Source of the DNA: a virus
Direction: 5' to 3' (one strand)
IMG/VR virus record: IMGVR_UViG_3300048818_000054
Location: 35,946-99,945 of that record
Length of the DNA: 64,000 nt
In this document: in pieces, positions 41,755-60,968 of the stretch
How positions within the stretch are numbered: position 1 is the stretch's first letter
Layout: each line of letters begins with the position of its first letter
Position numbers and translations under genes: made by a program
The notes under the pieces: generated by a model
What the model was told of the DNA's origin: nothing
Database searches by the model: none
Seen by the model: the letters and a program-made list of their open reading frames with translations, nothing else

Positions 41755-41835
41755 AAACCTCCTGTTTCTATTGGCTTATTTACAATATAGGCGTGATCCG
41801 AAGCGGTATCAAGTAGCATTTGGGGGAATGGTGAA
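41755..41835 (-). promoter_or_regulatory. CtrA-box promoter A with SD hairpin
   Basis: On the - strand: TTCACCAT (41828-41835; with TTAA seven bases further upstream at 41843-41846), 15 nt, TTGATA (41807-41812), 17 nt, TATATT (41784-41789). The ribosome site AGGAG lies in the loop of GAAAC/GTTTT at 41755-41768. Drives the 299-residue gene. Confidence 0.75.
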
Positions 41836-41842
41836 CAGATCG

Positions 41843-42673
41843 TTAAGCCCCCCAAATATTGCTCTTGGACGTGACCGGGCAATAGCTGTCGATCACCCCA
41901 TGTGACGTGTCATAGCTGGTCTTGGACCCTGCGGAGTAGTTGTTGCCGGTGTATGGGGTAACTTCATTCTTCCCGGACTTGGCGGTCGTCTTGTAGCCCT
42001 TGTGCTTCAACTTCTTGCAACCAAACTCCTTGACCAGAAAATCGACTTGCGACGTGCTCTCTACCGCCGTCTTGCAGTAGTTCGTGCGGACATACTCGAT
42101 AGCGTCGCTCTCTCCGTAGCGGGTGACCAGCGCGGCAAGGAACATACCGGTCCGCCCGTGTCCGCCCATGCAACCGCAATGGACTTTTCGGCCGGCGTCG
42201 ATCTGCTTTTTGGTCCAGTCCACCAGCTTGTTGAATTCTTCCGGCTTGTCCGGGATGCCCATGTCGGGAATGCGGAACAGGACTTCATCGCCCTTCTTCC
42301 AAGGCCAATTGCGTTGCGTGAACCGCATGTCATAGGCGAAGCCGATATACACGTCGGCGTCTTGGACGATCGGCTCGGAGCACGACCCGCCATAGATCAC
42401 CTTGTCGGTCCCCGGCAACGGCATAGCCGGATGCTTATGGTAGCAGCGGGAAAAGATGCCGGCGTAATTGTGAGACTGATACTTTGTGCCGGTGCCGCTG
42501 ACGCCGTGATGCTTGGCAGACGCCAGTTCGAATTTCGAATAACGCTGTTCCGCGCCAGAGCGCCACGGTAGCACGCCTTGCGCGCTGTAAGCCGGGTCGT
42601 GGCTGTCTTGCGGACCTAGGCCACCGTCACGGTGCTTTTCAAATTCGTCCCATGTATCCAGATACTTTGCCAT
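41843..42673 (-). CDS. protein tyrosine phosphatase-like protein 1
   Basis: 276 residues from the ATG that overlaps the upstream TAA (TAATG). The signature VHCGCMGGHGRTGMF gives a C-x5-R loop (C168, R174) preceded by an aspartate-containing segment (DKPEEFNKLVDW), as in cysteine-dependent phosphatases of the dual-specificity type. VYIGFAYDMRF and FRIPDMGIPD precede it. The last 60 residues (Lys/Ser/Tyr-rich) are extra and may be flexible. A second gene with a nearly identical loop lies 1.2 kb upstream. Substrates are unknown; host phosphoproteins, nucleotides or the neighbouring dikinase-like protein are possible. Confidence 0.65.
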   Translation of the reverse strand: MAKYLDTWDEFEKHRDGGLGPQDSHDPAYSAQGVLPWRSGAEQRYSKFELASAKHHGVSGTGTKYQSHNYAGIFSRCYHKHPAMPLPGTDKVIYGGSCSEPIVQDADVYIGFAYDMRFTQRNWPWKKGDEVLFRIPDMGIPDKPEEFNKLVDWTKKQIDAGRKVHCGCMGGHGRTGMFLAALVTRYGESDAIEYVRTNYCKTAVESTSQVDFLVKEFGCKKLKHKGYKTTAKSGKNEVTPYTGNNYSAGSKTSYDTSHGVIDSYCPVTSKSNIWGA

Positions 42674-43761
42674 TATGCCGCTTCCTTTCGAATGATCTTC
42701 TTGACGTAAACCGGACCGGCCTTGCCGGGCATAACCAGCAAGTGTTCCTTGATGAAATTCTTCTTGTCGAGCGCGACCTGCGCGGCGAAAGCTTCGGCCT
42801 TGGCCTTGGCGGCGGCGATGGCGGCCTTTGTTTCCGGCGTCATGCCATAGATTAAGGTCTGTTTCTTTATTTCGTTCGGATATTTTTGGACTGAGCCTTT
42901 CGCTTCCACCGTGTTCCAATCGACATAGGGGCCGATCGCGCCGGGGAAGTAATCGCGAACCCAAGCGGCCATCCCGGTCATTTCCGGGTTGACGTAGTGA
43001 GCCATTTCCGGGTCGTGAAGGATGGTCTCAATCATCTGTCCGGAGCGCTGCAAATCGAGCAGCCGAACAATGTAACTTCCGTTATGGCCGAACAGCTTAC
43101 CAGGCTTGTTAAAGATGGGAGCGCAATTGTGCGAGAGGGTCCAAATGGTATCGAGCATGATCTCTGCCGTAAACTCGCCGTTCACAAAACGGCCCATGCA
43201 ATCGGCAATGTTGCCCCACTTAGGACCGCCGTAAGCGCCGCCCCAGATTGAATGATAGTAAGACCAGCGAAGCGCGTCGCATAGCGTCCCGATCGAACAA
43301 TCCAGCGTGTTCTTGAGCAGGCGGTTGATAATGTCTTCCTCGCCGCCAGAGGCGGTAAGGAAGTTGGCGACCGGCGCTCCGAATTTTTCGGTTAGCTTCG
43401 GTCCATCGGTCTGCTTCGAATGACTGTGGCGGGCCTCGCGAACGCATATGGAAAGCAAGTAATAAAACGAGCGGCGGGCCTTCTCGCCCATCATCGCATG
43501 GTAGCGCTGAACGAAGTCCAATTCGGCGGCCGGCAGCGGCTCCAACGGATGGCGCTTGGCCGAGATTAACGCCATGCCATGGTTCATGCCGTAAAACCAA
43601 AGGGCTTCACGTTCAGGGCTGGCAAGAGGCGTCTTGTCTTGAGAATGAAATTGCTTGTAGGCGGGGATCACCGAGGAAACGGGAACTGCCGACATATCGG
43701 CCGGTCGCGTCAAAGCGCGTGAATTGTGATAGGCCAAAGTGTTTTGTGGGTCTGTGAGCAC
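42673..43761 (-). CDS. hypothetical protein between two phosphatase-like genes
   Basis: 362 residues, GTG start ten bases after AGGAGG. Mainly helical: FYGMNHGMALISAKRH, RSFYYLLSICVREARHSHS and WSYYHSIWGGAYGG give a core with many His, Tyr and Trp residues. The end is a Lys/Ala-rich helix followed by PVYVKKIIRK. No family can be named. It has its own CtrA-box promoter and shares one transcription unit with the phosphatase-like gene downstream, through a TAATG overlap, so the two may act together. Confidence 0.6.
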   Translation of the reverse strand: MLTDPQNTLAYHNSRALTRPADMSAVPVSSVIPAYKQFHSQDKTPLASPEREALWFYGMNHGMALISAKRHPLEPLPAAELDFVQRYHAMMGEKARRSFYYLLSICVREARHSHSKQTDGPKLTEKFGAPVANFLTASGGEEDIINRLLKNTLDCSIGTLCDALRWSYYHSIWGGAYGGPKWGNIADCMGRFVNGEFTAEIMLDTIWTLSHNCAPIFNKPGKLFGHNGSYIVRLLDLQRSGQMIETILHDPEMAHYVNPEMTGMAAWVRDYFPGAIGPYVDWNTVEAKGSVQKYPNEIKKQTLIYGMTPETKAAIAAAKAKAEAFAAQVALDKKNFIKEHLLVMPGKAGPVYVKKIIRKEAA

Positions 43762-43768
43762 GCCGGAA

Positions 43769-43857
43769 AAACCTCCTGTTTATCAGGCATTTAGAACATA
43801 GCATCTAGGAGGGTCGCGTTCAAGCGGTAGTTTCTGCGATGGTTAAGAAAGTCCTAA
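43769..43857 (-). promoter_or_regulatory. CtrA-box promoter B with SD hairpin
   Basis: On the - strand: TTAG-N7-TTAACCAT (43839-43857), 15 nt, TTGAAC (43818-43823), 17 nt, TATGTT (43795-43800) with TGC before it (extended -10). The ribosome site is inside AAAC-AGGAG-GTTT at 43769-43781. Confidence 0.8.
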
Positions 43858-44340
43858 AAACCATCCGAAGCGCTTGCGCCACGCCGCCCAGAAAAACCAA
43901 CGCTGGATTTCTTCAACGGGGAAGGCGGCTACGTAATCGATCTGCTCTTCTGTCTCGCACGACCGGTCATCGTAATGCCAGCGGACGTAGCCGACCGGAT
44001 TTCCAATCCCGGCGACCTTGGCTAGGAGCGCAAGGAACAGACCGGTGCGGCCGATGCCGCCCATGCAGCCGACGTAAACTTTCTTGCCGTCCAGCATGGC
44101 TCGGAGCGCTTTCTTGAGGACCGAGACGACGGCTGACGTGTCCTGCGGAACCTGAAAGTCCTTGATTGGCAACCACGCATGGACGCCTTCGAACGGGACG
44201 CGCTCGGAGCGAACGCAAACGTTGAAGGTTCCGCCGACCGGGCGCGCGTCAAACGGGCCACCGTCGATATCGAAACGATACCAACCGCCGTCCCATTGAA
44301 AATAGAGAGGCATTGAATTTGTCAGTCTCTTATGAAGCAC
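43843..44340 (-). CDS. protein tyrosine phosphatase-like protein 2
   Basis: 165 residues, GTG start six bases after AGGAGG. The loop VGCMGGIGRTGLF (C92, R98) is the C-x5-R signature of cysteine phosphatases and nearly equals that of the other phosphatase-like gene. W-L-P-I-K-D-F (about residue 56-62) could hold the general acid. The C-terminal AWRKRFGWF is basic and aromatic. It is much shorter than the first copy and their remaining sequences differ, so they are not a recent duplication. Own CtrA-box promoter and the best SD hairpin of the set. Confidence 0.65.
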   Translation of the reverse strand: MLHKRLTNSMPLYFQWDGGWYRFDIDGGPFDARPVGGTFNVCVRSERVPFEGVHAWLPIKDFQVPQDTSAVVSVLKKALRAMLDGKKVYVGCMGGIGRTGLFLALLAKVAGIGNPVGYVRWHYDDRSCETEEQIDYVAAFPVEEIQRWFFWAAWRKRFGWFLGLS

Positions 44341-44343
44341 GCG

Positions 44344-44416
44344 AAACCTCCTGTTTCGTCAATCACTTATAGCACATTTTGACAGCATCGCAAATGATAT
44401 CGCCGTCAATGGTTAA
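44344..44416 (-). promoter_or_regulatory. CtrA-box promoter C with SD hairpin
   Basis: On the - strand: TTAACCAT (44409-44416), 15 nt, TTGCGA (44388-44393), 16 nt, TATAAG (44366-44371) with TGC before it. It overlaps the 3' end of the 70-residue gene. The SD hairpin is CGAAAC-AGGAG-GTTTCG, six perfect pairs. Confidence 0.75.
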
Positions 44417-44575
44417 GAGCCAATCCCTGAACCGCCAGTTCCCATATTCGCTTGTGACTGGCGAGGCGCGCCGTCCCATGGCGGCGAGGGTACGGGCGAA
44501 CATGCCGCGCATCCCATCTTCCTTGGCGTGAGCGATGGCGTTATCCGACACGCGGTACACCCTGAACCTTGTCAT
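44363..44575 (-). CDS. hypothetical protein, 70 residues
   Basis: ATG with GAGGAAAACGGCT upstream, overlapping the end of the CsrA-like gene by 35 bases. The product is basic in its middle (MRGMFARTLAAMGRRA) and ends in LLTIDGDIICDAVKMCYK. Codons near its end contain the TTAACCAT box and promoter C, so the coding sequence doubles as regulatory DNA. Function unknown. Confidence 0.5.
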   Translation of the reverse strand: MTRFRVYRVSDNAIAHAKEDGMRGMFARTLAAMGRRASPVTSEYGNWRFRDWLLTIDGDIICDAVKMCYK

Positions 44576-44846
44576 AGCCGTTTTCCTCGCGCCATCTGTC
44601 GCCCTTTAAGATACGCATGGATTTGGGCGCGTCAATAACGACTCTCGCAATGCCGTGTTGCGGGCGGTCCCCGGACGAAATGAACACGTCAGGCATAATC
44701 TCTGTCGCCTCTTCCTCTCCGATCTTGAACATCTGGTCGCCGGCCGCGAGGGTGAAGGTGAAGCGTCCGGAGCGATACGCCACGAAAACCTGCTTGTCGG
44801 CAACATAGAAATCGTCGCCTTCTCTGAGGCTGAGGGTGAGGGGCAT
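44541..44846 (-). CDS. CsrA-like small regulator candidate
   Basis: 101 residues. LTLSLREGDDFYVADK at the start and ARVVIDAPKSMRILKGDRWRE at the end resemble the beginning (LVLTRRxGE) and end (VxLGIxAPxxxxIxREE) of carbon storage regulator proteins, with an insert of about 30 residues between. CsrA binds GGA in loops of mRNA leaders. That matches the AGGAG-in-loop ribosome sites found in this block, although the match in sequence is partial. It lies downstream of the dikinase-like gene in the same unit. Alternative: a small beta-barrel protein unrelated to RNA. Confidence 0.5.
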   Translation of the reverse strand: MPLTLSLREGDDFYVADKQVFVAYRSGRFTFTLAAGDQMFKIGEEEATEIMPDVFISSGDRPQHGIARVVIDAPKSMRILKGDRWREENGYDKVQGVPRVG

Positions 44847-44850
44847 GAGG

Positions 44851-46830
44851 CTAGGCTCCTAAGACAGAGAACACGGCATATTCAGCGGGCATAGCCTTGG
44901 GCGCTGCCGTATGGCCGTCGTGGTCGATAATCAGACCCGCCAGAGCCTTACCACGGATTTTGATCGCGTTCTGTAAAACCTTGACGAACGGGTCGGTCTT
45001 GACAGTCAGGTTGCCGAAAGTCTCGCGTAGCGTGTCGTCAGCTTCGTTCAGGAAAGCCTTGGGCGGGCGAACGTCAAGGGTGACGTGCATACGCATCGGC
45101 AGAGCCGCGAGGCCGTCCAACACCGCCGTCATGACCTCTTCCGAACCCCACCACTGAGAGGCCATGATCCGATGGGGCTTGGCCGCTCCCATGTCGCACG
45201 GGACAGGCGGGCAAGTGCCGAGCATTTCGAAAGACCAATCGATCACGTTCTGGACCGCCTTGTCATCCGAGGCGTCGATCACCGGAACCTCTTGATTGAT
45301 CCAAACCCGGCCGGTCGAACCGTCGATCGTAACGGTTTTCCACTTGCCGGCGTTGTCCAGCATATGCGGCCCGACGCCAACCACGCAAGTCTTGTCCATT
45401 GCGCGGGCGACCACGGCGGCGTGACTGGTAGCACCGCCCATGGCGGTTAGAATGCCCTTGGCCTTCGCCATCCCGGCGATATCGTTAGGGCTGGTTTCGT
45501 GCGTCACCAGAATGCAATCGAACTTGGCGGCGACCGCATCGGCCGAGCTAAACACCGGCTGCGCGGTCACGACGCCGGGGCAACCGGGGATGCCGGTGAA
45601 ATCTGGCTTGACCTTGTAATCGGGATCAATCTGCGGGCGGCGCAGCGTCTTGAACTGTTCGCTCGAAAGTTTCTTGAAAGCGTCAAGGCGGGTCCACTCG
45701 CCAGCGCCCACCTTGTCTACCGCGATGCGGAAGGCCGCGCGCGCCGAGCGCTTTCCAGAGCGGCTTTGCAGGATATAAAGCTTGCCCTGCTGAACCGTAA
45801 ACTCAATGTCCACCATGTCATTATAGATGGTTTCCAGCTTCGAGCAGAGCGCCAAAAGCTGGGCGTGAACGTCGGGCCAAGTAAAGTCGAGGCCGTTCGT
45901 GTTATAATTCCACTTGCCGATCATGCCTTCAACGGGATGCGGGGTCCGGATGCCGGCCACCACGTCTTCACCTTGGGCGTTCTCCAAAAACTCTCCGAAC
46001 ATGCCGGGCTCGCCAGTTGACGGGTTGCGAGTGAAAAGGACGCCGGTTCCGCTCGACTTGCCCATGTTGCCGAACACCATCGCCTGTATGGTAACGGCGG
46101 TGCCCATGTCATCGGGGATGCTATTCAGCTTGCGATACTCAATGGCGCGGGGGCTCTCCCAGCTATCGAACACGGCCAAGATGGCGGCAGCTAACTGCGC
46201 CCCCAAAGTATTGGGGAATTCCTTCTGCGTCGCGGCCTGAAACTTCTGTGTCATCAAAAAGCTGACCGCCTTCAAAGCGCCAACGGTCAGGTCGGTATCG
46301 AGCACCGCTTTATCGAGCACCTTCATTGCGGCCAACTCGCCGTCAAACACGGCCATCGGAACACCGAACGCCGTTGCGCCGAGCATCGTTATCAAGCGAC
46401 GGTAGCTGTCGAACGCGGCGCGCTCGCCAATCTTATCCCCCCAGCTATCGACGTTGCTTGTCGTGAGGCCGACGTTCAAAATCGTGTCCATCATGCCGGG
46501 CATAGAAACTGGCGCGCCAGAGCGGACCGAAACGAGAGGCATGAAGCCGAACTTCTTTTCGAGGGTCGCCATGTGCTCCATGGTCTTTGCGACCAAACCA
46601 TCAATGAAAGACACGTCAGCCGTCGTCACGCCGGCCTTCTTCATTACGCGGAACTTATTGCAAACGTCCGTCGTGATGGTGAAACCAGGAGGAACCGGCA
46701 TTCCATCATTGACCATCCTCACAAGGCCGGCACCCTTGCCGCCAAGGACGCGCTTCGTTTCCGAAGCGTCCGACGATTGCCACTGGCAACCGGTGTCCGA
46801 AAAATCATACATGGGAAGGTAGTCGGTCAT
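44851..46830 (-). CDS. pyruvate phosphate dikinase-like protein lacking the PEP/pyruvate barrel
   Basis: 659 residues against about 870-900 for true PPDK. The ATP-grasp part is well conserved: VLGGKGAGLVRMVNDG, LVSVRSGAPVSMPGMMDT, MVFGNMGKSSGTGVLFTRN, GEFLENAQGEDVVAGIRTP, DIEFTVQQGKLYILQ. The swivelling phosphohistidine domain follows (GGATSHAAVVARAMDK, H470). After about residue 520 the sequence no longer resembles PPDK: the TIM barrel that binds PEP/pyruvate is absent and about 140 different residues end the protein. So ATP-dependent autophosphorylation of H470 is plausible but the acceptor must be something else (compare rifampicin phosphotransferase architecture). Own CtrA-box promoter. 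Confidence 0.8.
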   Translation of the reverse strand: MTDYLPMYDFSDTGCQWQSSDASETKRVLGGKGAGLVRMVNDGMPVPPGFTITTDVCNKFRVMKKAGVTTADVSFIDGLVAKTMEHMATLEKKFGFMPLVSVRSGAPVSMPGMMDTILNVGLTTSNVDSWGDKIGERAAFDSYRRLITMLGATAFGVPMAVFDGELAAMKVLDKAVLDTDLTVGALKAVSFLMTQKFQAATQKEFPNTLGAQLAAAILAVFDSWESPRAIEYRKLNSIPDDMGTAVTIQAMVFGNMGKSSGTGVLFTRNPSTGEPGMFGEFLENAQGEDVVAGIRTPHPVEGMIGKWNYNTNGLDFTWPDVHAQLLALCSKLETIYNDMVDIEFTVQQGKLYILQSRSGKRSARAAFRIAVDKVGAGEWTRLDAFKKLSSEQFKTLRRPQIDPDYKVKPDFTGIPGCPGVVTAQPVFSSADAVAAKFDCILVTHETSPNDIAGMAKAKGILTAMGGATSHAAVVARAMDKTCVVGVGPHMLDNAGKWKTVTIDGSTGRVWINQEVPVIDASDDKAVQNVIDWSFEMLGTCPPVPCDMGAAKPHRIMASQWWGSEEVMTAVLDGLAALPMRMHVTLDVRPPKAFLNEADDTLRETFGNLTVKTDPFVKVLQNAIKIRGKALAGLIIDHDGHTAAPKAMPAEYAVFSVLGA

Positions 46831-46833
46831 CGT

Positions 46834-46927
46834 TGAACTTCCTGTTCAATCACGGTGTTGATTAGAACATAGCACGCCGTACGGCTCTTGCAAGTACGAC
46901 GTGCCATGATGGTTAAAAATCAGTTAA
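46834..46927 (-). promoter_or_regulatory. CtrA-box promoter D with SD hairpin
   Basis: On the - strand: complete TTAA-N7-TTAACCAT (46909-46927), 15 nt, TTGCAA (46888-46893), 16 nt, TATGTT (46866-46871) with TGC before it. The ribosome site is in TTGAAC-AGGAA-GTTCAA, whose stem differs from the others by compensatory changes. Drives the dikinase-like gene. Confidence 0.85.
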
Positions 46928-47157
46928 GCGACGACTGGACGTTCGGCCTGAAAATGGTCGATCGTCTTTCCGTCATCGTTCATCACCCAAGCGTCACCGG
47001 ACACCGGATACGTAGAGCAGCCTTTGCCTTCGCGCCATACGGTGCAAATCAACGGCGTATCCTGTTCCTTGTCGGTATGGAAGTCCACGCCGGTTATGTC
47101 GTGTCCTCCGATGATCGAAAACAACTGTGGTTTCGGATCGTAAATCTTGATGAACAT
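46924..47157 (-). CDS. hypothetical protein, 77 residues
   Basis: ATG with GGAAGACAGAT upstream; a longer upstream frame is shadow sequence of the next gene. The product (MFIKIYDPKPQLFSIIGGHD, then TVWREGKGCSTYPVSGDAW) looks like a small beta protein. Its stop codon forms the outer half of the CtrA box of promoter D. Unknown function; possibly coupled to the genes from 47903 down. Confidence 0.5.
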   Translation of the reverse strand: MFIKIYDPKPQLFSIIGGHDITGVDFHTDKEQDTPLICTVWREGKGCSTYPVSGDAWVMNDDGKTIDHFQAERPVVA

Positions 47158-47221
47158 ATCTGTCTTCCTATCTGTCTCTTCGACGGTGCGCCGTCCCGAT
47201 CCGTTCAACGAACGAATTTCG

Positions 47222-47734
47222 TCAATGCACTGAACGCGTGTAGAGCCCTTGAAGCTGGGCGCGCGTGATAAGATAGCCGGCTTCCTTGCGCCACAACCTT
47301 TCGTTAACTGACCACACCGGCCTGAGACCGTCAACGTCAGGGTCATCGTTCTTGGCGTCTTCCATGAGCAGCAAAGCGACAAGCACGGCTTGGCACGTCT
47401 TATCGTCCAAGAGGCCCTCGTCCACTAGGAGCAGGGGGAACATGGCGCACACGTACAGGGCGTGCCTCGGCTCTCCCGCTGCTAGGTCGCGCATCATGGA
47501 AACTGCCGTCCCCTCCACTCTGGCCGCGAGACGTGCGACGTTGAACATGTCCAGACTTGCTAACGGTTTGACCGATGCGACAGACAAATGGTGCAATACG
47601 TCCGCCCTGATCGTAAAGCCTGTCTTCTGGCATTCCTCGATAGCCAATATCAGCATGTGCGCGGGCAGACACATTTCCAATATCTTCGAGTCCCGCACCT
47701 GAAAGGCCCGAGGTTCCAACACCTGAACGCTCAT
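47222..47734 (-). CDS. hypothetical helical protein, 170 residues
   Basis: ATG with GGAGACGGAAA upstream. Predominantly helical (PAHMLILAIEECQKTGFTI, MFNVARLAARVEGTAVSMM, TCQAVLVALLLMEDAKND), cytoplasmic, ending in LITRAQLQGLY. No family recognised. It overlaps a longer frame (47400-47903) that is only unique in its first 58 codons; whether both are translated is unclear. Confidence 0.5.
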   Translation of the reverse strand: MSVQVLEPRAFQVRDSKILEMCLPAHMLILAIEECQKTGFTIRADVLHHLSVASVKPLASLDMFNVARLAARVEGTAVSMMRDLAAGEPRHALYVCAMFPLLLVDEGLLDDKTCQAVLVALLLMEDAKNDDPDVDGLRPVWSVNERLWRKEAGYLITRAQLQGLYTRSVH

Positions 47735-47903
47735 TTTCCGTCTCCAATTGCCCGCCGTTCTGATTGGCGAGTGTTTCAAAAGTGGGGTCTTCGAACGCTG
47801 GCGTAACGACGTAGCCGTTGTCCGTATAGGGGACTTTGCGCTTGTCTAGCGCAGCACAAAACACGGCTTGCCCCGTGTCATTGAAAAATCGAAAATCACT
47901 CAT
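47400..47903 (-). CDS. possible protein overlapping the 170-residue gene
   Basis: ATG eight bases before the end of the large terminase gene. The first 58 codons (SDFRFFNDTGQAVFCAALDK...) lie outside other genes and look like real coding sequence; the next 110 codons overlap the helical gene in another frame and are Gly/Arg/Pro-rich as expected for a shadow. A +1 shift near codon 57 would join the first part to the downstream gene. Either a short gene with a fortuitously long frame, or a fusion broken by a frameshift. Confidence 0.35.
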   Translation of the reverse strand: MSDFRFFNDTGQAVFCAALDKRKVPYTDNGYVVTPAFEDPTFETLANQNGGQLETENERSGVGTSGLSGAGLEDIGNVSARAHADIGYRGMPEDRLYDQGGRIAPFVCRIGQTVSKSGHVQRRTSRGQSGGDGSFHDARPSSGRAEARPVRVRHVPPAPSGRGPLGR

Positions 47904-52288: not shown

Positions 52289-52344
52289 CCCAACCGGGAA
52301 GGTCGGGGCCGAGCCACTTCGAGCCCCGCGAAGAATTCAGTCTC

Positions 52345-54475: not shown

Positions 54476-54476
54476 T

Positions 54477-54843: not shown

Positions 54844-54861
54844 GTCAGTGAGCCTCATTTG

Positions 54862-54875
54862 TGCAACTAGTTGCA
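54862..54875. promoter_or_regulatory. 14-bp palindrome copy 6
   Basis: TGCAACTAGTTGCA directly upstream of the XRE regulator gene (flanks give GTGCAACTAGTTGCAC, 16-bp symmetric). Likely autoregulatory operator. Confidence 0.85.
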
Positions 54876-54924
54876 CAGATTGGCACACTCCCGAGCCCGA
54901 GGCAAGCTACCTATGGGGAAAAAT

Positions 54925-55278
54925 TCAGTCGAAGCCACAAGCGTTTGTGCCATGCACGGTGCAGTCAACAATTGTGGCGCAACCGCATAGGGCAAGCGAC
55001 CTCCTGGTAGGGGCGCGAATCACGCAGCCGATCATGGCGCCGCTTGCGGCCGAATTGATGCAATTCGAATAAGGCTGTCGAAGATCGTCCAAAAGCTTGT
55101 CCTGCTTGACGGCGCGGTCGAACCTCATGCGCTCGATTTGCTCCTTGCGCTGATCGTTCGCCGCCGCGGCGTTGGCGTCCATTTGCGTCTGCGCCGCATC
55201 ATTGGCCGCATTGCGAACGGCGTGAAGATTGGCCGGCGTGAAGCCATCGGGATTCGTGTCAACGGAATTTGCGGGCAA
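54925..55278 (-). CDS. hypothetical protein, 117 residues
   Basis: TTG start chosen because AGGAGG lies seven bases upstream; an ATG 29 codons earlier is close to the tRNA-Thr gene and has no ribosome site. The product is polar and helical (LHAVRNAANDAAQTQMDANA, then EQIERMRFDRAVKQDKLL), with several cysteines at the end. The 19-bp sequence holding this ribosome site recurs near the 3' end of the same gene. Function unknown. Confidence 0.5.
   Translation of the reverse strand: MPANSVDTNPDGFTPANLHAVRNAANDAAQTQMDANAAAANDQRKEQIERMRFDRAVKQDKLLDDLRQPYSNCINSAASGAMIGCVIRAPTRRSLALCGCATIVDCTVHGTNACGFD
54995..55013. repeat. 19-bp direct repeat, copy 1
   Basis: AGCGACCTCCTGGTAGGGG (as read on +), identical to 55281-55299, 286 bp apart. 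On the - strand it carries AGGAGG, followed four bases later by a TTG that opens a 42-codon frame ending inside the palindrome copy at 54862. Confidence 0.75.
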
Positions 55279-55280
55279 CG

Positions 55281-55299
55281 AGCGACCTCCTGGTAGGGG
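55281..55299. repeat. 19-bp direct repeat, copy 2
   Basis: Second copy, providing the AGGAGG ribosome site of the 117-residue gene. Confidence 0.75.
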
Positions 55300-55388
55300 A
55301 ATCAGCGCCCCCGAACATCCGCGCGGGGCTCTGTCGTCCCCAACGCCATCTTCCGAACCTGTCATAATGGCTCATTCTGATGCTCCGA

Positions 55389-55463
55389 TGGTGCCCGGTG
55401 GGGGGATCGAACTCCCGACCTCCGGTTTACGAAACCATTGCTCTACCGCTGAGCTAACCGGGC
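55389..55463 (-). tRNA. tRNA-Thr (anticodon CGT)
   Basis: 75 nt including an encoded CCA. The acceptor stem GCCCGGT pairs with ACCGGGC; the D arm has GCTC/GAGC; the anticodon loop TTCGTAA gives CGT for the codon ACG; the T arm contains GTTCGATCC. All stems close, with one mismatch at the outer anticodon pair. It lies between the 117-residue gene and a 109-residue gene, transcribed with them. Confidence 0.9.
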
Positions 55464-55468
55464 CAAGA

Positions 55469-55798
55469 TCACCAGACGCCGATGACTTGTGTGATGGTGG
55501 CAATGCTTGTGATGCCGGCGATGCAGACGGCATTGTAACCGGCCTGCAACGTCATGGTCGTGACGACGTTGCCGAAAGCGTCATGCCCGGTCAAGGTGCC
55601 GGCCTTGTCGCAAATCAAGCCGCGCGTGGGGCCTTGCGTGAGGGGGGTGTTGCCGCCGCTGTCGATCTGCGCCGTGATATCGGCGTAAACGATGGCCGGG
55701 CCGAGCAGGGTCGGCATGTCATAGTCTGACACGTCCGTATAGGACTTGGCTTCCAAGCCCCATTTGAAAACTGGAACGGCAAGTTTCGGGAAGGCCAT
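55469..55798 (-). CDS. hypothetical protein, 109 residues
   Basis: ATG with AGGAGCC upstream, lying between the two tRNA genes. The product (AFPKLAVPVFKWGLEAKSYTD, then AQIDSGGNTPLTQGP, GLICDKAGTLTGHDAFG, ending AGITSIATITQVIGVW) looks like a small beta-rich protein, as seen in capsid decoration or head fibre proteins, but nothing specific can be claimed. Its placement away from the capsid block argues against a major virion role. Confidence 0.55.
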   Translation of the reverse strand: MAFPKLAVPVFKWGLEAKSYTDVSDYDMPTLLGPAIVYADITAQIDSGGNTPLTQGPTRGLICDKAGTLTGHDAFGNVVTTMTLQAGYNAVCIAGITSIATITQVIGVW

Positions 55799-55817
55799 TG
55801 GCGTAGGCTCCTAGAAT

Positions 55818-55894
55818 TGGTTGCGGGAGTAGGATTTGAACCTACGGCCTGTTGGGTATGAGCCAACCGAGCTACCGGGCTGCTCCACCCCGCT
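55818..55894 (-). tRNA. initiator-type tRNA-Met (CAT)
   Basis: 77 nt including CCA. Anticodon loop CTCATAC. Initiator features: position 1 is A and 72 is A, so the first acceptor pair is mismatched; the D stem has A11:T24; the D arm GGAGCAGCCCGGTAGCTC matches bacterial fMet tRNAs almost exactly. The anticodon stem ends in TGG/CCA, so only two of the three G:C pairs of standard initiators are present. Probably a phage initiator tRNA. Confidence 0.8.
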
Positions 55895-55914
55895 AAATCG
55901 AACCTATCAGGCCC

Positions 55915-56784
55915 TCAAGCGTATTGCAAGGTGGCTTCGCCGGGCATGGTCTTCCGAAGCTGCACCCAGCCCACAAGGTTGCCGTGCAAGTGTGGTTGCT
56001 GCCAACCGCTGATCTGGTCGTCAAGCACGTCCGGCGTCGCCTGATGCTCAAACGGGCTGGCGTGCATCGGGTTTGCCGAGGACAGCTTTTCATAAAGCGA
56101 GACTGCGCGATCGACGGTCATGTCAAACCCTTCCACCGTATTATAGCTGGTCGAAGCGCAACGGGCGACCGACAACTTTTTCGCAAGGTCCAAGTCGCGG
56201 ACAACCACGCCGGTTGCACCGGGCGGTGCGAGGAAGGGCAAATGCCACTCGCCGGGCTTCAAAATCTGGACCGGTGCGGCGGTGTGGGCGAATCGCATAC
56301 GTTCAGCAAGCAAGCGCATATGTGGCTCTGCGCCGTCGTGGCAACGAAGTGCCCAAAAGTTCGCCCACTCGGTTGCCGTGATAACGAGGGTGATATGGGT
56401 GTAGGGCTCCAAGAGCCGATTGCAGAGCGACTTATGGACGCCGAGGGCGTGGAGCGAGTCAGCGCGAGCACAAGCGTCGTCACGCGACTTCTTCCACTGA
56501 TATTCCAATTTCGCGATGATGTTCGGGTCCGTAATAAATACGCCCGAGTGCATCCCCTTGCCATCGGCCATCCAATACACCGGCATAGCAGGGTCGTTTA
56601 CGGCTTCGTCCAAGAGCCTCTTGAATGGCAGCGCGCGTGACGATGACGCGTTTCTACCGAACGCACGATGCGTCATGACTTCGGCGTGTATCCAACGCGG
56701 ATAGCGAGAGAGCAGCGTCGTTATCGTAGCCGGGTTACCAGCCGATGAACTTTTCAAAATGGCTTGCGCCGAAAAGGTGGTCAT
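55915..56784 (-). CDS. FAD-dependent thymidylate synthase (ThyX)-like protein
   Basis: 289 residues. THRAFGRNASSSRALP matches the ThyX signature RHR-x2-S-x-N-x2-S-x-R in altered form, and PYTHITLVITATEWANFWALR plus HDGAEPHMRLLAERM match the later FAD/dUMP-binding helices. ThyX makes dTMP from dUMP using folate and FAD; a dCTP deaminase-like gene nearby would supply dUTP. The first arginine and the NE pair of the usual motif differ, as in other phage relatives, so activity may differ. ATG start; the 20-codon reading frame before it may be coupled to it. Confidence 0.65.
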   Translation of the reverse strand: MTTFSAQAILKSSSAGNPATITTLLSRYPRWIHAEVMTHRAFGRNASSSRALPFKRLLDEAVNDPAMPVYWMADGKGMHSGVFITDPNIIAKLEYQWKKSRDDACARADSLHALGVHKSLCNRLLEPYTHITLVITATEWANFWALRCHDGAEPHMRLLAERMRFAHTAAPVQILKPGEWHLPFLAPPGATGVVVRDLDLAKKLSVARCASTSYNTVEGFDMTVDRAVSLYEKLSSANPMHASPFEHQATPDVLDDQISGWQQPHLHGNLVGWVQLRKTMPGEATLQYA

Positions 56785-56839
56785 TTCTTCCTCTTGGGGA
56801 TTGGAATTTCGATGCGTACAGAGCCGTCAGGCAGGACGG

Positions 56840-56950
56840 TCACCTGTCCATCGGCCCGTCGTGAGGATCGCCGCCCTTGCTGACCTCGTAAATCATCACG
56901 CCTAGGAGCGCCACGATCAAAGCCAGCGCCAGCCAATTTTCGAGCATCAT
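56840..56950 (-). CDS. 36-residue membrane peptide
   Basis: Short frame from ATGATG overlapping the TGA of the MazG-like gene. The product MMLENWLALALIVALLGVM then IYEVSKGG is a single hydrophobic segment with a polar tail. A second, 20-codon frame (GTG at 56843, overlapping its stop, to 56781) encodes VLPDGSVRIEIPIPKRKK and ends one base before the ThyX-like ATG; it is too short to judge. Coupled starts suggest both may be translated. Confidence 0.4.
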   Translation of the reverse strand: MMLENWLALALIVALLGVMIYEVSKGGDPHDGPMDR

Positions 56951-57363
56951 TGTGGGCTCTCGCCAAGGCCGGCCTCTGCTTTCTCAAGCTGCCGTTTGAT
57001 AAAGTGCTCGCGATCGAAACCGAGCACGCGATCAATCTCCGTGCGTACTGCGTTATCGAGGCGGACTTCTTTCGCCGCGCAATAAGCGAGCAAGCAGACG
57101 CCGACACCGCCAAGCTCTTGCGGCGGGTCGCCGGGTTTGCGGTCGAACACGCGATCGACAAGCTTGTGTAGCTTGGCGCGCATGAGCGTCTTGTCATGCG
57201 TCTCCGCTTGGGCAAGTTCAAGAGCCTCTTCGCTTAGGCGAAGCACGCGCTCTTCGATGCTGTCGAAAACCTTGTCGCCCCAAGCGCGGCGCACCCATTT
57301 CTCGACCACGATCTGGTCAAGGCCGTAATCTGCCCACGCGGGACCGGTTTCTATCTCAGCCAA
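56947..57363 (-). CDS. MazG-like nucleotide pyrophosphohydrolase
   Basis: 138 residues, TTG start with GGGGGA upstream. ERVLRLSEEALELAQA (E-E-x2-E metal-binding helix) and PPQELGGVGVCLLAYCAA are the two halves of the MazG-like/all-alpha NTP pyrophosphatase fold. Such enzymes hydrolyse (d)NTPs or alarmones and are common in phages, where they may adjust nucleotide pools. It overlaps the downstream small gene and follows the 65-residue membrane protein. Exact substrate unknown. Confidence 0.7.
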   Translation of the reverse strand: MAEIETGPAWADYGLDQIVVEKWVRRAWGDKVFDSIEERVLRLSEEALELAQAETHDKTLMRAKLHKLVDRVFDRKPGDPPQELGGVGVCLLAYCAAKEVRLDNAVRTEIDRVLGFDREHFIKRQLEKAEAGLGESPQ

Positions 57364-57553
57364 AATGCAAAATCCCCCAAGCTATAGCGGCCACGATCGA
57401 CGCACCGAACATAGCGCGCGTGGCATAGCGAATTTCCCGCGCATAGATCAAGAAACCCGGCGCAGCGGTCACGTAGGTTACGGCGCGCACGCCACGTCGC
57501 AAGCGGTCGCGCAGCTTGAAGTCTTCGGACAAAGCAATTGGTAGACTACTCAT
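57356..57553 (-). CDS. 65-residue membrane protein
   Basis: ATG with GGAGGCTGTCGAA upstream; a longer upstream frame crosses the promoter region. Hydrophobic segments at about residues 25-38 and 45-62 (AMFGASIVAAIAWGILHF). First gene of the leftward unit that starts at the divergent promoter near 57600. Function unknown. Confidence 0.55.
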   Translation of the reverse strand: MSSLPIALSEDFKLRDRLRRGVRAVTYVTAAPGFLIYAREIRYATRAMFGASIVAAIAWGILHFG

Positions 57554-57583
57554 TTCGACAGCCTCCGTGCTGAGCGTTGTCCA

Positions 57584-57612
57584 ACAATGGCGACACGCCC
57601 TCTCTCTGTCAA
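57584..57612 (-). promoter_or_regulatory. leftward sigma70-type promoter
   Basis: On the - strand TTGACA (57607-57612, perfect -35), 17 nt, CATTGT (57584-57589, weak -10). Located just upstream of the 65-residue membrane gene and divergent from the + strand gene. Confidence 0.5.
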
Positions 57613-57624
57613 CCAAATTCAGCC

Positions 57625-57653
57625 TTGCGCTTTTTGGGATCATGATTTATGTG
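57625..57653 (+). promoter_or_regulatory. rightward promoter candidate for the only + strand gene
   Basis: TTGCGC (57625-57630), 17 nt, TATGTG (57648-57653), 24 bases before the ATG of the + strand gene. Only partial match to consensus. Confidence 0.45.
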
Positions 57654-57676
57654 AGCCGGGTCGAAAGGGGGTTTCC

Positions 57677-58093
57677 ATGTCCGACCTCGAACGGATGTTC
57701 AAGCGTTTAGATGCACGGCTTGAAGTCCACAATGGACAGATCAACCGAAGGATCGACCAAATCATGGCTGCCATCGACGATCTCAACGCCGGCATTACGA
57801 CGCTCGCAACCGACATGTCGGCGGTTTCCGCCGACGTGACGCAAGTATCGACCGACCTCTCCGCCGCTGTCGCCGCCCTACAGGCTGCCATCGCTGCGGG
57901 CAATTCGGTTGCCATCGAAGCCGCCGTTGCCAATCTGGCTACGGTTGACACCGCCGCGAAAGCTGCCGACGTTGCCCTCAAGGCAATGGATAGCACTCTC
58001 ACGGCTCTTGTGCCTCCGCCCGCCGCTGCGGCCCCTGCGGCTGCGCCTGCTCCTGCGCCCGCTCCCGCCCCGGCTCCTGCCGCTGGCTCTTGA
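57677..58093 (+). CDS. coiled-coil protein with Ala/Pro-rich tail (only + strand gene)
   Basis: 138 residues from ATG with AAAGGGGG upstream; an earlier frame start overlaps the promoter. Residues 1-110 are an amphipathic helical stretch with LERMFKRLDARLEVHNGQINRR and regularly spaced D/T/V (TTLATDMSAVSADVTQVSTDL), likely a coiled coil; residues 111-135 are an AP repeat ending in GS. Tails of this kind occur in short fibre-like or trimeric proteins. It is followed directly by a terminator and faces the opposite way to all other genes, suggesting separate regulation. Confidence 0.6.
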   Translation: MSDLERMFKRLDARLEVHNGQINRRIDQIMAAIDDLNAGITTLATDMSAVSADVTQVSTDLSAAVAALQAAIAAGNSVAIEAAVANLATVDTAAKAADVALKAMDSTLTALVPPPAAAAPAAAPAPAPAPAPAPAAGS

Positions 58094-58108
58094 CGGTCAA
58101 GCAGACAT

Positions 58109-58146
58109 GAAGGTGGCCGTCCGACGTGAGCCTGGCGGCCTTTTTT
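58109..58146 (+). terminator. Rho-independent terminator of the + strand gene
   Basis: AAGGTGGCC pairs with GGCGGCCTT (one wobble, one mismatch) around a 15-base loop, followed by TTTTTT. It ends the + strand transcript before the leftward genes, which converge on it. Confidence 0.6.
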
Positions 58147-58158
58147 ATAGAAGGCAGA

Positions 58159-58347
58159 TTAGTTCAGTTGACGCGCCCCATGGCCCGGTCGGAAAGCGCT
58201 GACACGCTTATCCTGACCGAGTGCCTGTTGAGAGATTTGGGGGCGACCCCGGCGCTCCGAAGCGAACACGGGAAGCTTTGTTTCCGCCGACAATGCCGCC
58301 ACGTAGGCAGCGTAGTCCGCGAAAGACTTGACGTGTCTGATCTGCAT
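58159..58347 (-). CDS. 62-residue protein of unknown function
   Basis: ATG with GGGGAAAT upstream. N-terminal part QIRHVKSFADYAAYVAALSAE is an amphipathic helix; the rest is Arg/Gln-rich. The 3' end lies 13 bases from the terminator of the convergent + strand gene. Unknown, moderately likely to be real because of the ribosome site and position. Confidence 0.4.
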   Translation of the reverse strand: MQIRHVKSFADYAAYVAALSAETKLPVFASERRGRPQISQQALGQDKRVSAFRPGHGARQLN

Positions 58348-58414
58348 ATTTCCCCATCCTTGGTTTCGAGTTGACGATCACGCCCACCCCAAGGGGACGG
58401 GCGACCGTGTAACT

Positions 58415-58441
58415 CTAGTGGTATCAGAATGGTTCCACTAG
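58415..58441. repeat. inverted repeat CTAGTGG-N13-CCACTAG
   Basis: Two 7-bp arms around 13 bases, in the 131-base gap between the exported-protein gene and the 62-residue gene. It could be a hairpin ending the first transcript or an operator for the second; there is no U run. A second GC-rich hairpin (CCCC-AAGG type) lies at about 58386-58400. Confidence 0.5.
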
Positions 58442-58478
58442 CAAGGTTCGGAAAGTACGCATGCGGCCTAGGGACTAC

Positions 58479-58967
58479 TCAGTCGTGAATGGTCCAAGTG
58501 AACGTCTGGCCGTTCAGTTCGCAACTATTGTAGACGATCGGACCCCACGTCGAGCCGTCGCCGCTTCTGGCATAAAGTGTCTGATTGCAATGCACGCCGT
58601 CGTACGGGACGCCCCACGGATTGACGATGTTTCCGGGCGTCACGAAGCCGTTCCACACCGCGCCGTTGACCACAACCTGCACGATGACGTGGCTCGTCCA
58701 ATTCCGCAAAAGCATTTGCTGCAACGGCGGCGTCGCATATAGCACTTGCGGACCGGGATCGACCGGGACAACTTCGATGGGCGCGATGTAAACCGGAGCC
58801 GGGACCACGATGACCGGAGCCGGCTCGTAATCATGATAGGGCACGTAGCCGCCAAAGATGCCACCCAGCAAGCCGGGAATGAGGCCGGGGTAGTATCGAT
58901 CGTGCGCGAACGCGGGAGCCGTCACAAGGGCTGCCAGCGTGACGCCAAGTAGAAGTCGCTTCAACAT
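58479..58967 (-). CDS. exported protein with Sec signal peptide
   Basis: 162 residues from ATG with AAGGAAAAA upstream; an upstream in-frame start would mask the signal. Residues 1-21 (MLKRLLLGVTLAALVTAPAF then AHD) form a Sec signal with cleavage after AFA. The mature part is Pro/Val/Tyr-rich (EPAPVIVVPAPVYIAPIEV) with two cysteines and a Trp/Asn-rich end. An exported periplasmic or surface protein is unusual in a lytic-type cluster; superinfection exclusion or envelope modification are possible. It has a promoter resembling the CtrA-box class. Confidence 0.65.
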   Translation of the reverse strand: MLKRLLLGVTLAALVTAPAFAHDRYYPGLIPGLLGGIFGGYVPYHDYEPAPVIVVPAPVYIAPIEVVPVDPGPQVLYATPPLQQMLLRNWTSHVIVQVVVNGAVWNGFVTPGNIVNPWGVPYDGVHCNQTLYARSGDGSTWGPIVYNSCELNGQTFTWTIHD

Positions 58968-59024
58968 GGATTTTTCCTTCTGCGATAGCGCGGGTGCCGC
59001 CGCGCGTCGGAAACTATTGTCCAA

Positions 59025-59076
59025 AGCATGTCGCATTTTTCGGACATATGCAAGAGCAAAGCCTTGATATGCTTAA
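59025..59076 (-). promoter_or_regulatory. CtrA-box-like promoter F (degenerate)
   Basis: On the - strand TTAAGCAT (59069-59076, one mismatch), exactly 15 nt, TTGCAT (59048-59053), 17 nt, CATGCT (59025-59030). Weak -10 but the same geometry as promoters A-E. Upstream of the exported-protein gene. Confidence 0.5.
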
Positions 59077-59083
59077 CGAATAC

Positions 59084-59377
59084 TCATGCTGACGGCAGAC
59101 GCTTGTTCGTTGCGTCGCGCTCGTAAGCGTCGAACTCTTGCAGGATCACGCTTACGCAGACAGCTTTCGGAACGCGCCAGCAATGAGGCTCCGCGCGCAA
59201 GTCCGGCCGCGTGGCGATGTAGCTGTATCTATCTTTGATGTAGGCGCGCGCTTGGCTGCGCGTCTCGAACAGCGCAAGCTTGTAAGCCCCGAACCCGAAC
59301 TGGTCACCGATGAAGTACTCGCGGTGCCCGTCCAACTTGTTCGTTTGCGTCCAGCGGACTGCCCAACCGACAATCAT
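59084..59377 (-). CDS. hypothetical protein, 97 residues
   Basis: ATG with GAGGTAGAC upstream. Contains VRWTQTNKLDGHREYFIGDQ, FETRSQARAYIKDRYSYIATRPDL and a C-terminal strand CVSVILQEF. The pattern (a trp/tyr-rich strand pair followed by a helix) resembles small phage proteins of unknown role. Ends eight bases before the TTAAGCAT box of promoter F. Confidence 0.55.
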   Translation of the reverse strand: MIVGWAVRWTQTNKLDGHREYFIGDQFGFGAYKLALFETRSQARAYIKDRYSYIATRPDLRAEPHCWRVPKAVCVSVILQEFDAYERDATNKRLPSA

Positions 59378-59379
59378 GT

Positions 59380-59610
59380 CTACCTCATTAGCTTGTAGCG
59401 ATAGCGGACTCGGCCGCAAGCCAATCTGAGGACCACATGGGAGCCGAATTCCTCTTTACGCAAGTCGCGTATCCGCGCTGAAATAGACGCCTGCGGGTCG
59501 CCCGTCAGTTCGGATAGTTCGGCCAGCGACCACGCGCTGCCATCATCCATCAAGGACTTGACGCGCTCGCGTTGAAGCAAATCAGCGGACGGGTGTTTTG
59601 GCCTAGCCAC
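59380..59610 (-). CDS. winged-helix DNA-binding protein candidate
   Basis: 76 residues from a GTG just after the stop of the upstream gene (7 bases earlier); the frame upstream of it is shadow. WSLAELSELTGDPQASISARIRDL is a helix-turn-helix with a recognition helix, followed by strands VVLRLACGRVRYRYK as the wing. Probable transcription regulator of the early cluster. Family not named. Confidence 0.55.
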   Translation of the reverse strand: MARPKHPSADLLQRERVKSLMDDGSAWSLAELSELTGDPQASISARIRDLRKEEFGSHVVLRLACGRVRYRYKLMR

Positions 59611-59902
59611 CGCACGCCACCAAGGCCGGCACTTCAACGTCTTCCTCGATCTCTTCGACCCGGAACACGAAGCGCTTGCCGTTGCGAAGCTGATAGACGA
59701 CCTCGCATTTGTCATCCGCGACAATGCCAACTCGCATGGTGACTGGCGAGCGTGAGCTACGCTGGCCGGCGACAATCTTCGCTTCCTTCGATCCCGCCTC
59801 ATGGTCGCGGACGCTCATAGGATCGTGATTGTTCAGCTTGCGTCCCATCCATTGGGCGAGCCCTTCGGCGTCGCTGAGAATGTGTGCTCTTACCTTACCC
59901 AT
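59603..59902 (-). CDS. hypothetical protein, 99 residues
   Basis: ATG with AAGGGGTTTCAA upstream. Basic N-terminus, then SVRDHEAGSKEAKIVAG, and a beta-rich C-terminus (VVYQLRNGKRFVFRVEEIEE). No family recognised. A perfect 10-bp inverted repeat lies 40 bases upstream of its start. Confidence 0.5.
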   Translation of the reverse strand: MGKVRAHILSDAEGLAQWMGRKLNNHDPMSVRDHEAGSKEAKIVAGQRSSRSPVTMRVGIVADDKCEVVYQLRNGKRFVFRVEEIEEDVEVPALVACGG

Positions 59903-59941
59903 TTGAAACCCCTTGGTTTTCCACTGTCGAGAGGAATTTTC

Positions 59942-59970
59942 GATCCAATAGTGGAAACCGCTATTGGATC
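59942..59970 (-). repeat. perfect 10-bp inverted repeat (hairpin)
   Basis: GATCCAATAG and CTATTGGATC around a 9-base loop, between the 53-residue membrane gene (whose stop codon lies in the stem) and the 99-residue gene. Followed on the - strand by GAAAATTCC; a weak terminator or a processing/retarding structure. Confidence 0.65.
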
Positions 59971-60122
59971 ATGTGCAGGAATGCACCGTACACGTCGCGC
60001 CCGGCCCCGACCATAAGAAACGCCAGCCATATGACCAGCAAGATCGCGACTGTTCCGAGGATCAAAATCTCAGCGCATCCGGGCTTCTTGTCAAGCTCGG
60101 GCTCCCAATCGTTCAAGCTCAT
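59961..60122 (-). CDS. 53-residue membrane protein
   Basis: Short frame from ATG overlapping the TGA of the upstream gene. Hydrophobic segment at about residues 19-40 (ILILGTVAILLVIWLAFLMV) preceded by acidic residues and followed by a short tail. Coupling supports translation. Stop codon inside the perfect hairpin. Confidence 0.55.
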   Translation of the reverse strand: MSLNDWEPELDKKPGCAEILILGTVAILLVIWLAFLMVGAGRDVYGAFLHMIQ

Positions 60123-60481
60123 ATGTCACCCCTAAGCGTGAGAAAATCGCGCATCGTGTTGCAGACCCTATGTGCGAAGCGCAAGAACTCTTCCGAGTCA
60201 GGAAGGTACTCGCGTACCATACGCTCGGCCGCAAGTTCAGTCACGGTCGGGGCATCGAATTTCGCTTTGTTAATGCCAGACCAACGTATCATGAGCGCCC
60301 TCTTGGTCAAGTCGGCGTATGACAAAACCGCCCAATAGGGCAGCTTATAGTCTTCCGCTATGTTCATGTACGGGTAGCTTCCGGAACGGCGCGCAGAGCG
60401 CGCAAGTGCCGCGACGTACATCTTGTCAGTCACGCGCTTGATGGCGTCCTGATCGGATTGAGAGCAGAAACCGTCCGACAA
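60119..60481 (-). CDS. hypothetical protein, 120 residues
   Basis: TTG start five bases after AGGAGG in the hairpin GAAAC-AGGAG-GTTTC. Contains SDQDAIKRVTDKMYVAALARS, YWAVLSYADLTKRALMIRWSG and ERMVREYLPDSEEFLRFAHR; soluble and helical. No family named. First well-supported gene after the long leader of promoter E. Confidence 0.55.
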   Translation of the reverse strand: MSDGFCSQSDQDAIKRVTDKMYVAALARSARRSGSYPYMNIAEDYKLPYWAVLSYADLTKRALMIRWSGINKAKFDAPTVTELAAERMVREYLPDSEEFLRFAHRVCNTMRDFLTLRGDI

Positions 60482-60594
60482 CGAAACCTCCTGTTTCTGC
60501 GGCGCTTGCTGGTCATTACAAATTCCCCGCCAGAGGCCGCCTTCGTATGGGCGACTTGACGGGGGTTGTTCCGGTTCGCAACGGGGCCGTTCAT
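60430..60594 (-). CDS. possible 54-residue basic peptide
   Basis: ATG with TAGGAGCCACCTC upstream (strong ribosome site), overlapping the next gene by 52 bases in another frame. The product is basic (MTSKRRRNRRFRCRT). The ribosome site argues for translation; the long overlap and composition argue against. Confidence 0.35.
   Translation of the reverse strand: MNGPVANRNNPRQVAHTKAASGGEFVMTSKRRRNRRFRCRTVSALNPIRTPSSA
60483..60497 (-). promoter_or_regulatory. SD hairpin GAAAC-AGGAG-GTTTC
   Basis: Ribosome site of the 120-residue gene in the loop of a 5-bp stem; one of six such elements. Confidence 0.6.
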
Positions 60595-60599
60595 GAGGT

Positions 60600-60917
60600 G
60601 GCTCCTAACACGCTTGTCGTGCTTTGCTACTAGGGTAGCTCGTGACGGCGCTTGCTTGGACCGCGAGGGCGGTTCGTCATCCTCGATCTCCGCTCCAAAA
60701 CGTCGCGCTTGCAATCGCGGGGGTTCCAGAGGTTTGCCGGGCTCCCGATTTGAGCTACGGTCCAAGGAAGCGTCGTCTAGTAGAAAATTGGTGCCGGTCT
60801 ATTCGAGAGCCGAGCGGCAGGCTGTAGTATATCTTTCCAACTTGCTTGCTGGCCCGAAGGCCACCGGGCGGGCCTCGCTCCGGAAGGGGAAACAGGAAAG
60901 GCCGTTTCCATACTTTC
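60600..60917 (-). other. structured leader, no convincing gene
   Basis: About 300 nt between promoter E and the first ribosome site. It contains GGAAAC-N10-GTTTCC and GGCCCG-N12-CGGGCC inverted repeats near its 5' end. One frame (60755-60952) is open but its only ATG sits inside the -10 box. May be an RNA regulatory leader or simply untranslated. Confidence 0.45.
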
Positions 60918-60968
60918 AACATAGCACCTTGCTTTTCTCTTGCAAGGGGCAATCGCTGCGATGGTTAA
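60918..60968 (-). promoter_or_regulatory. CtrA-box promoter E
   Basis: On the - strand TTAACCAT (60961-60968), 15 nt, TTGCAA (60940-60945), 16 nt, TATGTT (60918-60923) with TGC before it. A palindrome copy lies 9 bases upstream. Drives the small early-type genes from 60594 down. Confidence 0.8.

Follow-up and report, generated by a model that had tools for sequence, protein, structure and literature searches.

Predicted CtrA sites at one exact distance from sigma-70-like promoters in a siphophage and in unrelated phage lineages

CtrA at host and phage promoters

The host regulator CtrA binds and controls promoters of the phages phiCbK, Cp1R7A-A1 and Delta, for which lytic deferment has been proposed (PMC9437464, 2022), and a Rhodobacter capsulatus phage requires host CtrA (PMC10589892). 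Outside the Caulobacterales and Hyphomicrobiales, the role of CtrA lies in motility and quorum responses rather than in the cell cycle (PMC9437464). Here, a family of promoters is described from a 64,000-nucleotide stretch of viral DNA (the window), which spans bases 35946-99945 of the 99,945-bp IMG/VR record IMGVR_UViG_3300048818_000054; coordinates are those of the window unless marked as genome. The record holds at least seven promoters with a predicted CtrA site at one exact upstream distance. Taken together, the evidence makes it likely that these are sigma-70 promoters of an alphaproteobacterial siphophage that are activated by host CtrA in a class-I-like manner, and that they couple a cassette of phage genes to CtrA activity.

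The sequences recognized by CtrA have been described as a full site, TTAA-N7-TTAAC, and a half-site, TTAACCAT (PMC3692519), with TTAA-N7-TTAA and TTAACCAT also given elsewhere (PMC6180460). In Caulobacter and Rhodobacter sphaeroides, the activating site overlaps the -35 element and ends 23-24 nt before the transcription start (PMC6180460, PMC11264516). The gp005 and gp018 promoters of phiCbK are likewise phage promoters activated by host CtrA, through TTAA-N7-TTAA (PMC9437464), but there the site occupies the place of the -35, a CTAG-type -10-like element follows closely and a separate TTG -35 is lacking. The window phage has the binding sequence of the Caulobacter and R. sphaeroides promoters, and presumably their activation by CtrA, yet it keeps a -35, and about 50 nt separate the end of its box from the inferred start. 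The first-pass annotation of this DNA was correct in calling the lack of overlap with the -35 unusual, and the comparisons below support refining that remark to a recurrent class-I-like architecture. No description of a CtrA promoter class with a fixed distance of 15 or 25 nt was found in the literature searched, which was mainly open-access.

Promoters of the window phage

All six sites in the window lie on the minus (-) strand, and in each of them the box ends exactly 15 nt before a TTG. Promoter D (46866..46927) is the most complete, with a full predicted CtrA site, TTAA (46924-46927) and TTAACCAT (46909-46916) separated by N7, followed by the -35 TTGCAA (46888-46893) and the -10 TATGTT (46866-46871). 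Promoter A (41784..41846) consists of TTAA (41843-41846), the box TTCACCAT (41828-41835), which differs from TTAACCAT by one mismatch, TTGATA (41807-41812) and TATATT (41784-41789), while promoter B (43795..43857) comprises the half-site TTAG (43854-43857), TTAACCAT (43839-43846), TTGAAC (43818-43823) and TATGTT (43795-43800). Promoters C (44366..44416) and E (60918..60968) carry the box TTAACCAT at 44409-44416 and 60961-60968, the -35 elements TTGCGA (44388-44393) and TTGCAA (60940-60945), and the -10 elements TATAAG (44366-44371) and TATGTT (60918-60923), respectively. The spacer between -35 and -10 is 17 nt in A and B and 16 nt in C, D and E, and the -10 is preceded by TGC in B-E and by GCC in A.

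These positions, the 15-nt distance, the 16-17 nt spacers, the TATRTT or TATAAG -10 elements and the prevalence of TGC ahead of them had all been reported in the first pass, and they hold on re-examination. So does the extension of the box to TTAA-N7-TTAA with at most one mismatch in three promoters, which is perfect in D and reads TTAA-N7-TTCA in A and TTAG-N7-TTAA in B. The sixth site (59025..59076) was rightly credited with a box, the good TTAAGCAT (59069-59076), at the same distance from its -35, TTGCAT (59048-59053); its -10, CATGCT (59025-59030), is poor, and the site is missing among the above-threshold hits of a sigma-70 matrix. A search of the whole genome for the motif, proposed at that stage, added copies that had been overlooked: two good ones at genome 11473 (TTAACCAC) and genome 17427 (GTAACCAC), and a weaker one at genome 15867 (TTAAGTAT), each on the - strand. 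By genome position the sites stand at 11.5, 15.9, 17.4, 77.8, 79.8, 80.4, 82.9, 95.0 and 96.9 kb, at ordinary gene starts.

The association of box and promoter is tight. TTAACCAT occurs four times in the whole record, every time at N15-TTG (binomial P = 1.7e-7) and followed, after 16 or 17 nt counted from the hexamer, by TATGTT or TATAAG; the composite TTAACCAT-N15-TTG-N19/20-TAT, found four times, was absent from each of 100 dinucleotide shuffles. When promoters were scored by a sigma-70 matrix blind to the box, the five best were A (the top hit), the outside site at genome 11473, D, E and B. Of the eight boxes in the initial list, four (A, B, D and 11473) are preceded at N7 by a TTAA with no more than one mismatch (P about 6e-5, with the box of A counted as TTCACCAT). 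The window phage carries predicted CtrA sites in its promoter regions, in greater number than chance would give and placed at promoters. The -35 elements behind the boxes are sub-consensus (TTGCAA, TTGAAC, TTGATA and TTGCGA), whereas TTGACA is found in the genome's two strongest promoters that lack a box (26199 and 32577), a difference that fits a need for help at the former.

Some of these promoters resemble one another beyond the box: D, E and 11473 have TTGCAAGAG and TGCTATGTT in common, and B and E have TTAACCATCGCAG. Such segments would be expected of a promoter cassette that spreads without regulatory meaning. Nevertheless, the 15-nt linkers differ in sequence at constant length, the shuffles gave no match, and independent phages with unrelated linkers keep the same distance, so that a spreading cassette, or chance, is a very improbable account.

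The same geometry in other phages

The 15-nt geometry is not private to the window phage, as the same predicted promoter recurs in unrelated alphaproteobacterial phages. The box lies 15 nt before TTGC in Mesorhizobium phage Cp1R7A-A1 and in at least 12 IMG/VR contigs from at least two other lineages, and a second class in these other phages places it 25 nt before the -35. Cp1R7A-A1 was chosen by terminase similarity and from the literature, with no use of the motif. Five of its 11 copies of TTAACCAT stand at N15-TTG (P = 3e-7), with a TTGC -35 as in the window phage, and several TTAA-N7-TTAAC sites lie 25 nt before TTG. One promoter of this phage, that of gp019, is bound by CtrA in an electrophoretic mobility shift assay and shows about twofold CtrA-dependent activation of lacZ in a ctrA-ts strain (PMC9437464). 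In its sequence, TTAA-N7-TTAAC is followed by TTGCGT 25 nt after the 8-mer, which places it in the 25-nt class; the promoter family therefore has one tested member. Cp1R7A-A1 differs from the window phage in belonging to a phiCbK-like lineage. Its sites are concentrated in the left ~14 kb; those of the window phage are dispersed and mostly single half-sites. The LPEG phages differ from the window phage in the same respect, with sites concentrated in a gap or terminal repeat, at low positional entropy (PMC9437464).

Among IMG/VR sequences, a stringent pattern with the correct spacing gave 33 matches in 20 stretches, with three to six in some contigs, against 2 and 5 for two wrongly spaced controls of equal stringency (both with an altered spacer, one also with a box distance of 20). 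Of the 117 copies of TTAACCAT in these loci, 53 have TTG at offset 15, where 2.1 are expected, although about half of the 53 were ascertained by the search itself. Smaller counts appear at offsets 25-26 and also at 41-42, the latter being attributed to the TATGTTG of the -10 itself. A scan with open distance gave, among the matches listed, mostly AT-rich chance matches; a GC-rich subset (n = 8) had four at 15 and two at 25. A pattern scan also gave the contig L112, whose 14.8 kb contain 37 copies of TTAACCAT; many of them take the form GTTAACCCTTTGTTAACCAT-N15-TTGCAT, and its terminase resembles the phiCbK-like cluster. L348 and L340 are Cp1R7A-A1-like by terminase, and L247 and L230 are relatives of Roseobacter phage RDJL3 or of PaMx25.

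Across 67 distinct promoters of this type, most from loci found by searches that did not require an upstream TTAA, TTAA stands at a gap of 7 in 17 and at any other single gap in two at most; with up to one mismatch allowed, the enrichment at N7 has a Fisher P of about 5e-11. As N7 spacing is the signature of the full CtrA site, this enrichment argues for CtrA as the factor.

The 15- and 25-nt spacings are not universal, since Brevundimonas phage vB_BpoS-Gurke (ON529850.1, 280238-290848) has a third geometry, in which five TTAACCAT promoters are separated from TTGACA by 18-19 nt with an A-rich linker, TTTTCTGAAAAAG. The geometry was also seen in a 60% GC contig (L144; JAKQEI010000250.1) from the bin of a Bacteroidota metagenome-assembled genome; its genes are phage-like and include a ribonucleotide reductase-like open reading frame (ORF), and it is probably a mis-binned phage.

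Probable host and regulator

The window phage, a siphophage of about 100 kb, is distantly related to Rhodobacter phage RcZahn and to the Rhizobium phages RHph_Y1_11 and TM16. The DNA polymerase shares 56% identity with its counterpart in RcZahn, 51% with those in RHph_Y1_11 and TM16, and 43% with that in Stenotrophomonas phage DLP_5. Gene order is conserved, and the - strand carries nearly all genes that have relatives as well as every promoter found. GANTC is the site of CcrM methylation, and its depletion is expected in phages of CcrM-methylating alphaproteobacteria. The record contains 53 GANTC sites where 370 are expected (0.14 of expectation, a roughly sevenfold depletion), RcZahn has one, and RHph_Y1_11 and TM16 have none, whereas DLP_5 is not depleted (331 against 349 expected). 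These counts suggest that GANTC avoidance tracks alphaproteobacterial hosts among the window phage and its relatives, and, with Rhodobacter and Rhizobium as hosts of its nearest relatives, the window phage itself probably infects an alphaproteobacterium. The site is absent or almost absent from five other phages with the box (L272, L341, L342, L230 and L347), and others show no depletion; in two box-bearing IMG/VR contigs, L344 and L345, it is enriched, at 2.2 and 1.5 times expectation.

The window phage encodes no OmpR-type DNA-binding domain (PF00486 winged helix). With a GANTC depletion that fits an alphaproteobacterial host, this absence indicates that the regulator should be host CtrA. 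Although phages often encode their own activators, and many unassigned ORFs leave room here for a novel DNA-binding protein, a phage-encoded regulator at the boxes appears improbable: the winged helix is missing, the N7 signature is that of CtrA, and no regulator common to the phages of this geometry is visible, as what they have in common with the window phage at tblastn 1e-5 is limited to tail proteins and a single thymidylate-synthase-like protein (the IMG/VR contigs being partial loci). Only the DNA side of the interaction is in view and the host is predicted, which leaves a place for another OmpR-family regulator of the host, or a DNA-bending protein, with a similar site. Such a factor is a shade less probable again, given that the CtrA site has been described in two forms, TTAACCAT and TTAA-N7-TTAA (PMC3692519, PMC6180460), and that the tested phage promoter of this geometry uses CtrA. 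The CtrA assignment, which dates from the first-pass annotation, gains from the second TTAA at N7, the probable host and the missing OmpR-type domain, and further from the recurrence of the geometry in unrelated alphaproteobacterial phages and the CtrA-activated Cp1R7A-A1 promoter of the same geometric family.

Several observations weigh against control by CtrA. The host is itself a prediction, and the presence of CtrA in it is presumed along with it. Among the window's five good promoters, C and E have no recognizable second half-site, and that of A and B is imperfect. RcZahn, RHph_Y1_11 and TM16 contain no TTAACCAT-N15-TTG promoter, and the trait thus seems to be recent in the window phage or lost in its closest relatives. 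In cellular genomes, a looser form of the promoter pattern gave 62 matches, mostly in other phyla, where about 60 are expected by our estimate. As cellular genomes show no excess, the phage promoter does not copy any established type of host promoter.

The strict pattern gave no match in the cellular genome contigs scanned, and together with the chance-level count of the looser one this led to the rejection of a wide cellular use of this exact promoter. In 289 alphaproteobacteria from across the class, the TTGAC variant had no match, which does not exceed the reversed-pattern control, and 198 Rhodobacterales genomes yielded seven matches, none at 15 nt and without excess over the same control.

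A probable class-I-like mode of action

Phosphorylated CtrA would bind either to a lone TTAACCAT or, as a dimer, to TTAA-N7-TTAACCAT. With the start placed 7 nt after the -10, the full site would be centered at -61 or -62 in the 15-nt class, where 15 nt part the box from an intact, sub-consensus TTGC or TTGA -35; in the second class, seen in the other phages, it would lie one helical turn further out, at 25 nt, with its center near -72. Class-I activators such as CRP contact the C-terminal domain of the RNA polymerase alpha subunit from these positions, in helical phase. With starts assigned in this way, the sites fall near -61.5 or -71.5, in phase and upstream of an intact -35, and CtrA would most likely contact the same domain. 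The outcome would be that expression of a conserved cassette of pyruvate phosphate dikinase (PPDK) and tyrosine phosphatase genes, and of a few small genes, follows the activity of CtrA in the host, and so the cell cycle or the state of motility. The first-pass annotation had suggested that the phage may time accessory and early genes to the host cell cycle; the genes in question are this cassette and small ORFs with no assigned function. For the window phage, we infer the identity of the factor, the direction of its effect, the alpha contact and the timing.

CtrA could instead bind and repress or delay these promoters, as in the lytic deferment of phage Delta, or only tune their timing, as at Caulobacter pilA. 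CtrA represses DELTA_120 (PMC9437464), upstream CtrA sites repress at pilA (PMC11264516), and the extended, near-consensus -10 elements mean that the promoters may fire unaided. Set against these precedents, a site near -61 lies outside the core RNA polymerase footprint, phasing at exactly 15 or 25 nt is needed by an activator that contacts polymerase and not by a repressor, and the gp019 promoter of the 25-nt class is activated. Repression or mere tuning is accordingly held to be unlikely, and activation by CtrA is preferred.

CtrA control of phages has been known since 2022 for a few phages; the phage lineage and the class-I geometry look new. The balance tips towards unrelated alphaproteobacterial phage lineages having independently reached the same class-I CtrA promoter, with the site at -61 or -72 and a TTGC -35 kept, in a form not above chance in cellular genomes. 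If so, CtrA input would have been added to a sigma-70 promoter without replacing its -35, and activation by CtrA would obey a rigid helical-phase rule. CtrA control would extend to the RcZahn/RHph-like phage family, with a strict geometric rule readable from sequence. That rule could serve to predict CtrA-responsive phage promoters in metagenomes, as a likely mark of alphaproteobacterial hosts, and the phage would offer a simple system in which to ask whether CtrA acts as a class-I activator, a mode absent from the host-CtrA papers cited here.

Genes downstream of the promoters

The PPDK-like gene (44851-46830, - strand; PF01326, PF00391) would be driven by promoter D in this arrangement, and is kept at the same place in RcZahn, RHph_Y1_11, TM16 and DLP_5. 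Promoter C would drive a DSP/PTP-type tyrosine phosphatase-like ORF (43843-44340, - strand), with PF22785 and PF22784 above cut-off, which is the orthologue of RcZahn gp9. Promoter B precedes an ORF at 42673-43761, the orthologue of RcZahn gp10, and probably also drives the second tyrosine phosphatase-like ORF that follows (41843-42964); promoter A precedes the orthologue of RcZahn gp12 (40852-41751). No function is assigned to the gp10 and gp12 orthologues. In the homologous ~100-kb phages RcZahn, RHph_Y1_11 and TM16, this PPDK/phosphatase cassette likewise lies between the genes for terminase and DNA polymerase, but there its genes stand behind other, box-free sigma-70-like promoters. Among 79 other PPDK-bearing IMG/VR loci, the box was found only in a fragment of the same phage.

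The weak site at 59025 is followed by a small ORF (58479-58967) whose product looks exported, and promoters E and 11473 precede short ORFs. The first ORF after E (60777-60911) encodes 44 amino acids and that after 11473 encodes 69, and in both cases an ATG lies exactly 6 nt past the -10 (60911, and genome 11416, respectively); these transcripts may be leaderless.

Other repeated elements

Two nearly identical box-less promoters, TTGACTTC-GAAC-ATCGTCTATCGTCACG, occur at genome 14155 and 20353, and several other box-less promoters have a TATCGT -10; together they may form a second promoter family. The record also contains 14 copies of a perfect palindrome, TGCAACTAGTTGCA, and none with one mismatch. 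They lie at genome 6569, 13671, 17402, 18717, 25320, 30667, 33827, 39629, 56490, 60295, 66487, 73761, 90809 and 96925, the last seven being 3684, 20545, 24350, 30542, 37816, 54864 and 60980 of the window. RcZahn, RHph_Y1_11, TM16 and DLP_5 lack the palindrome. It often sits just 5' of a Shine-Dalgarno sequence or covers a -35, stands directly upstream of promoter E and also at genome 17427, and by this placement the set looks like operators for a phage regulator.

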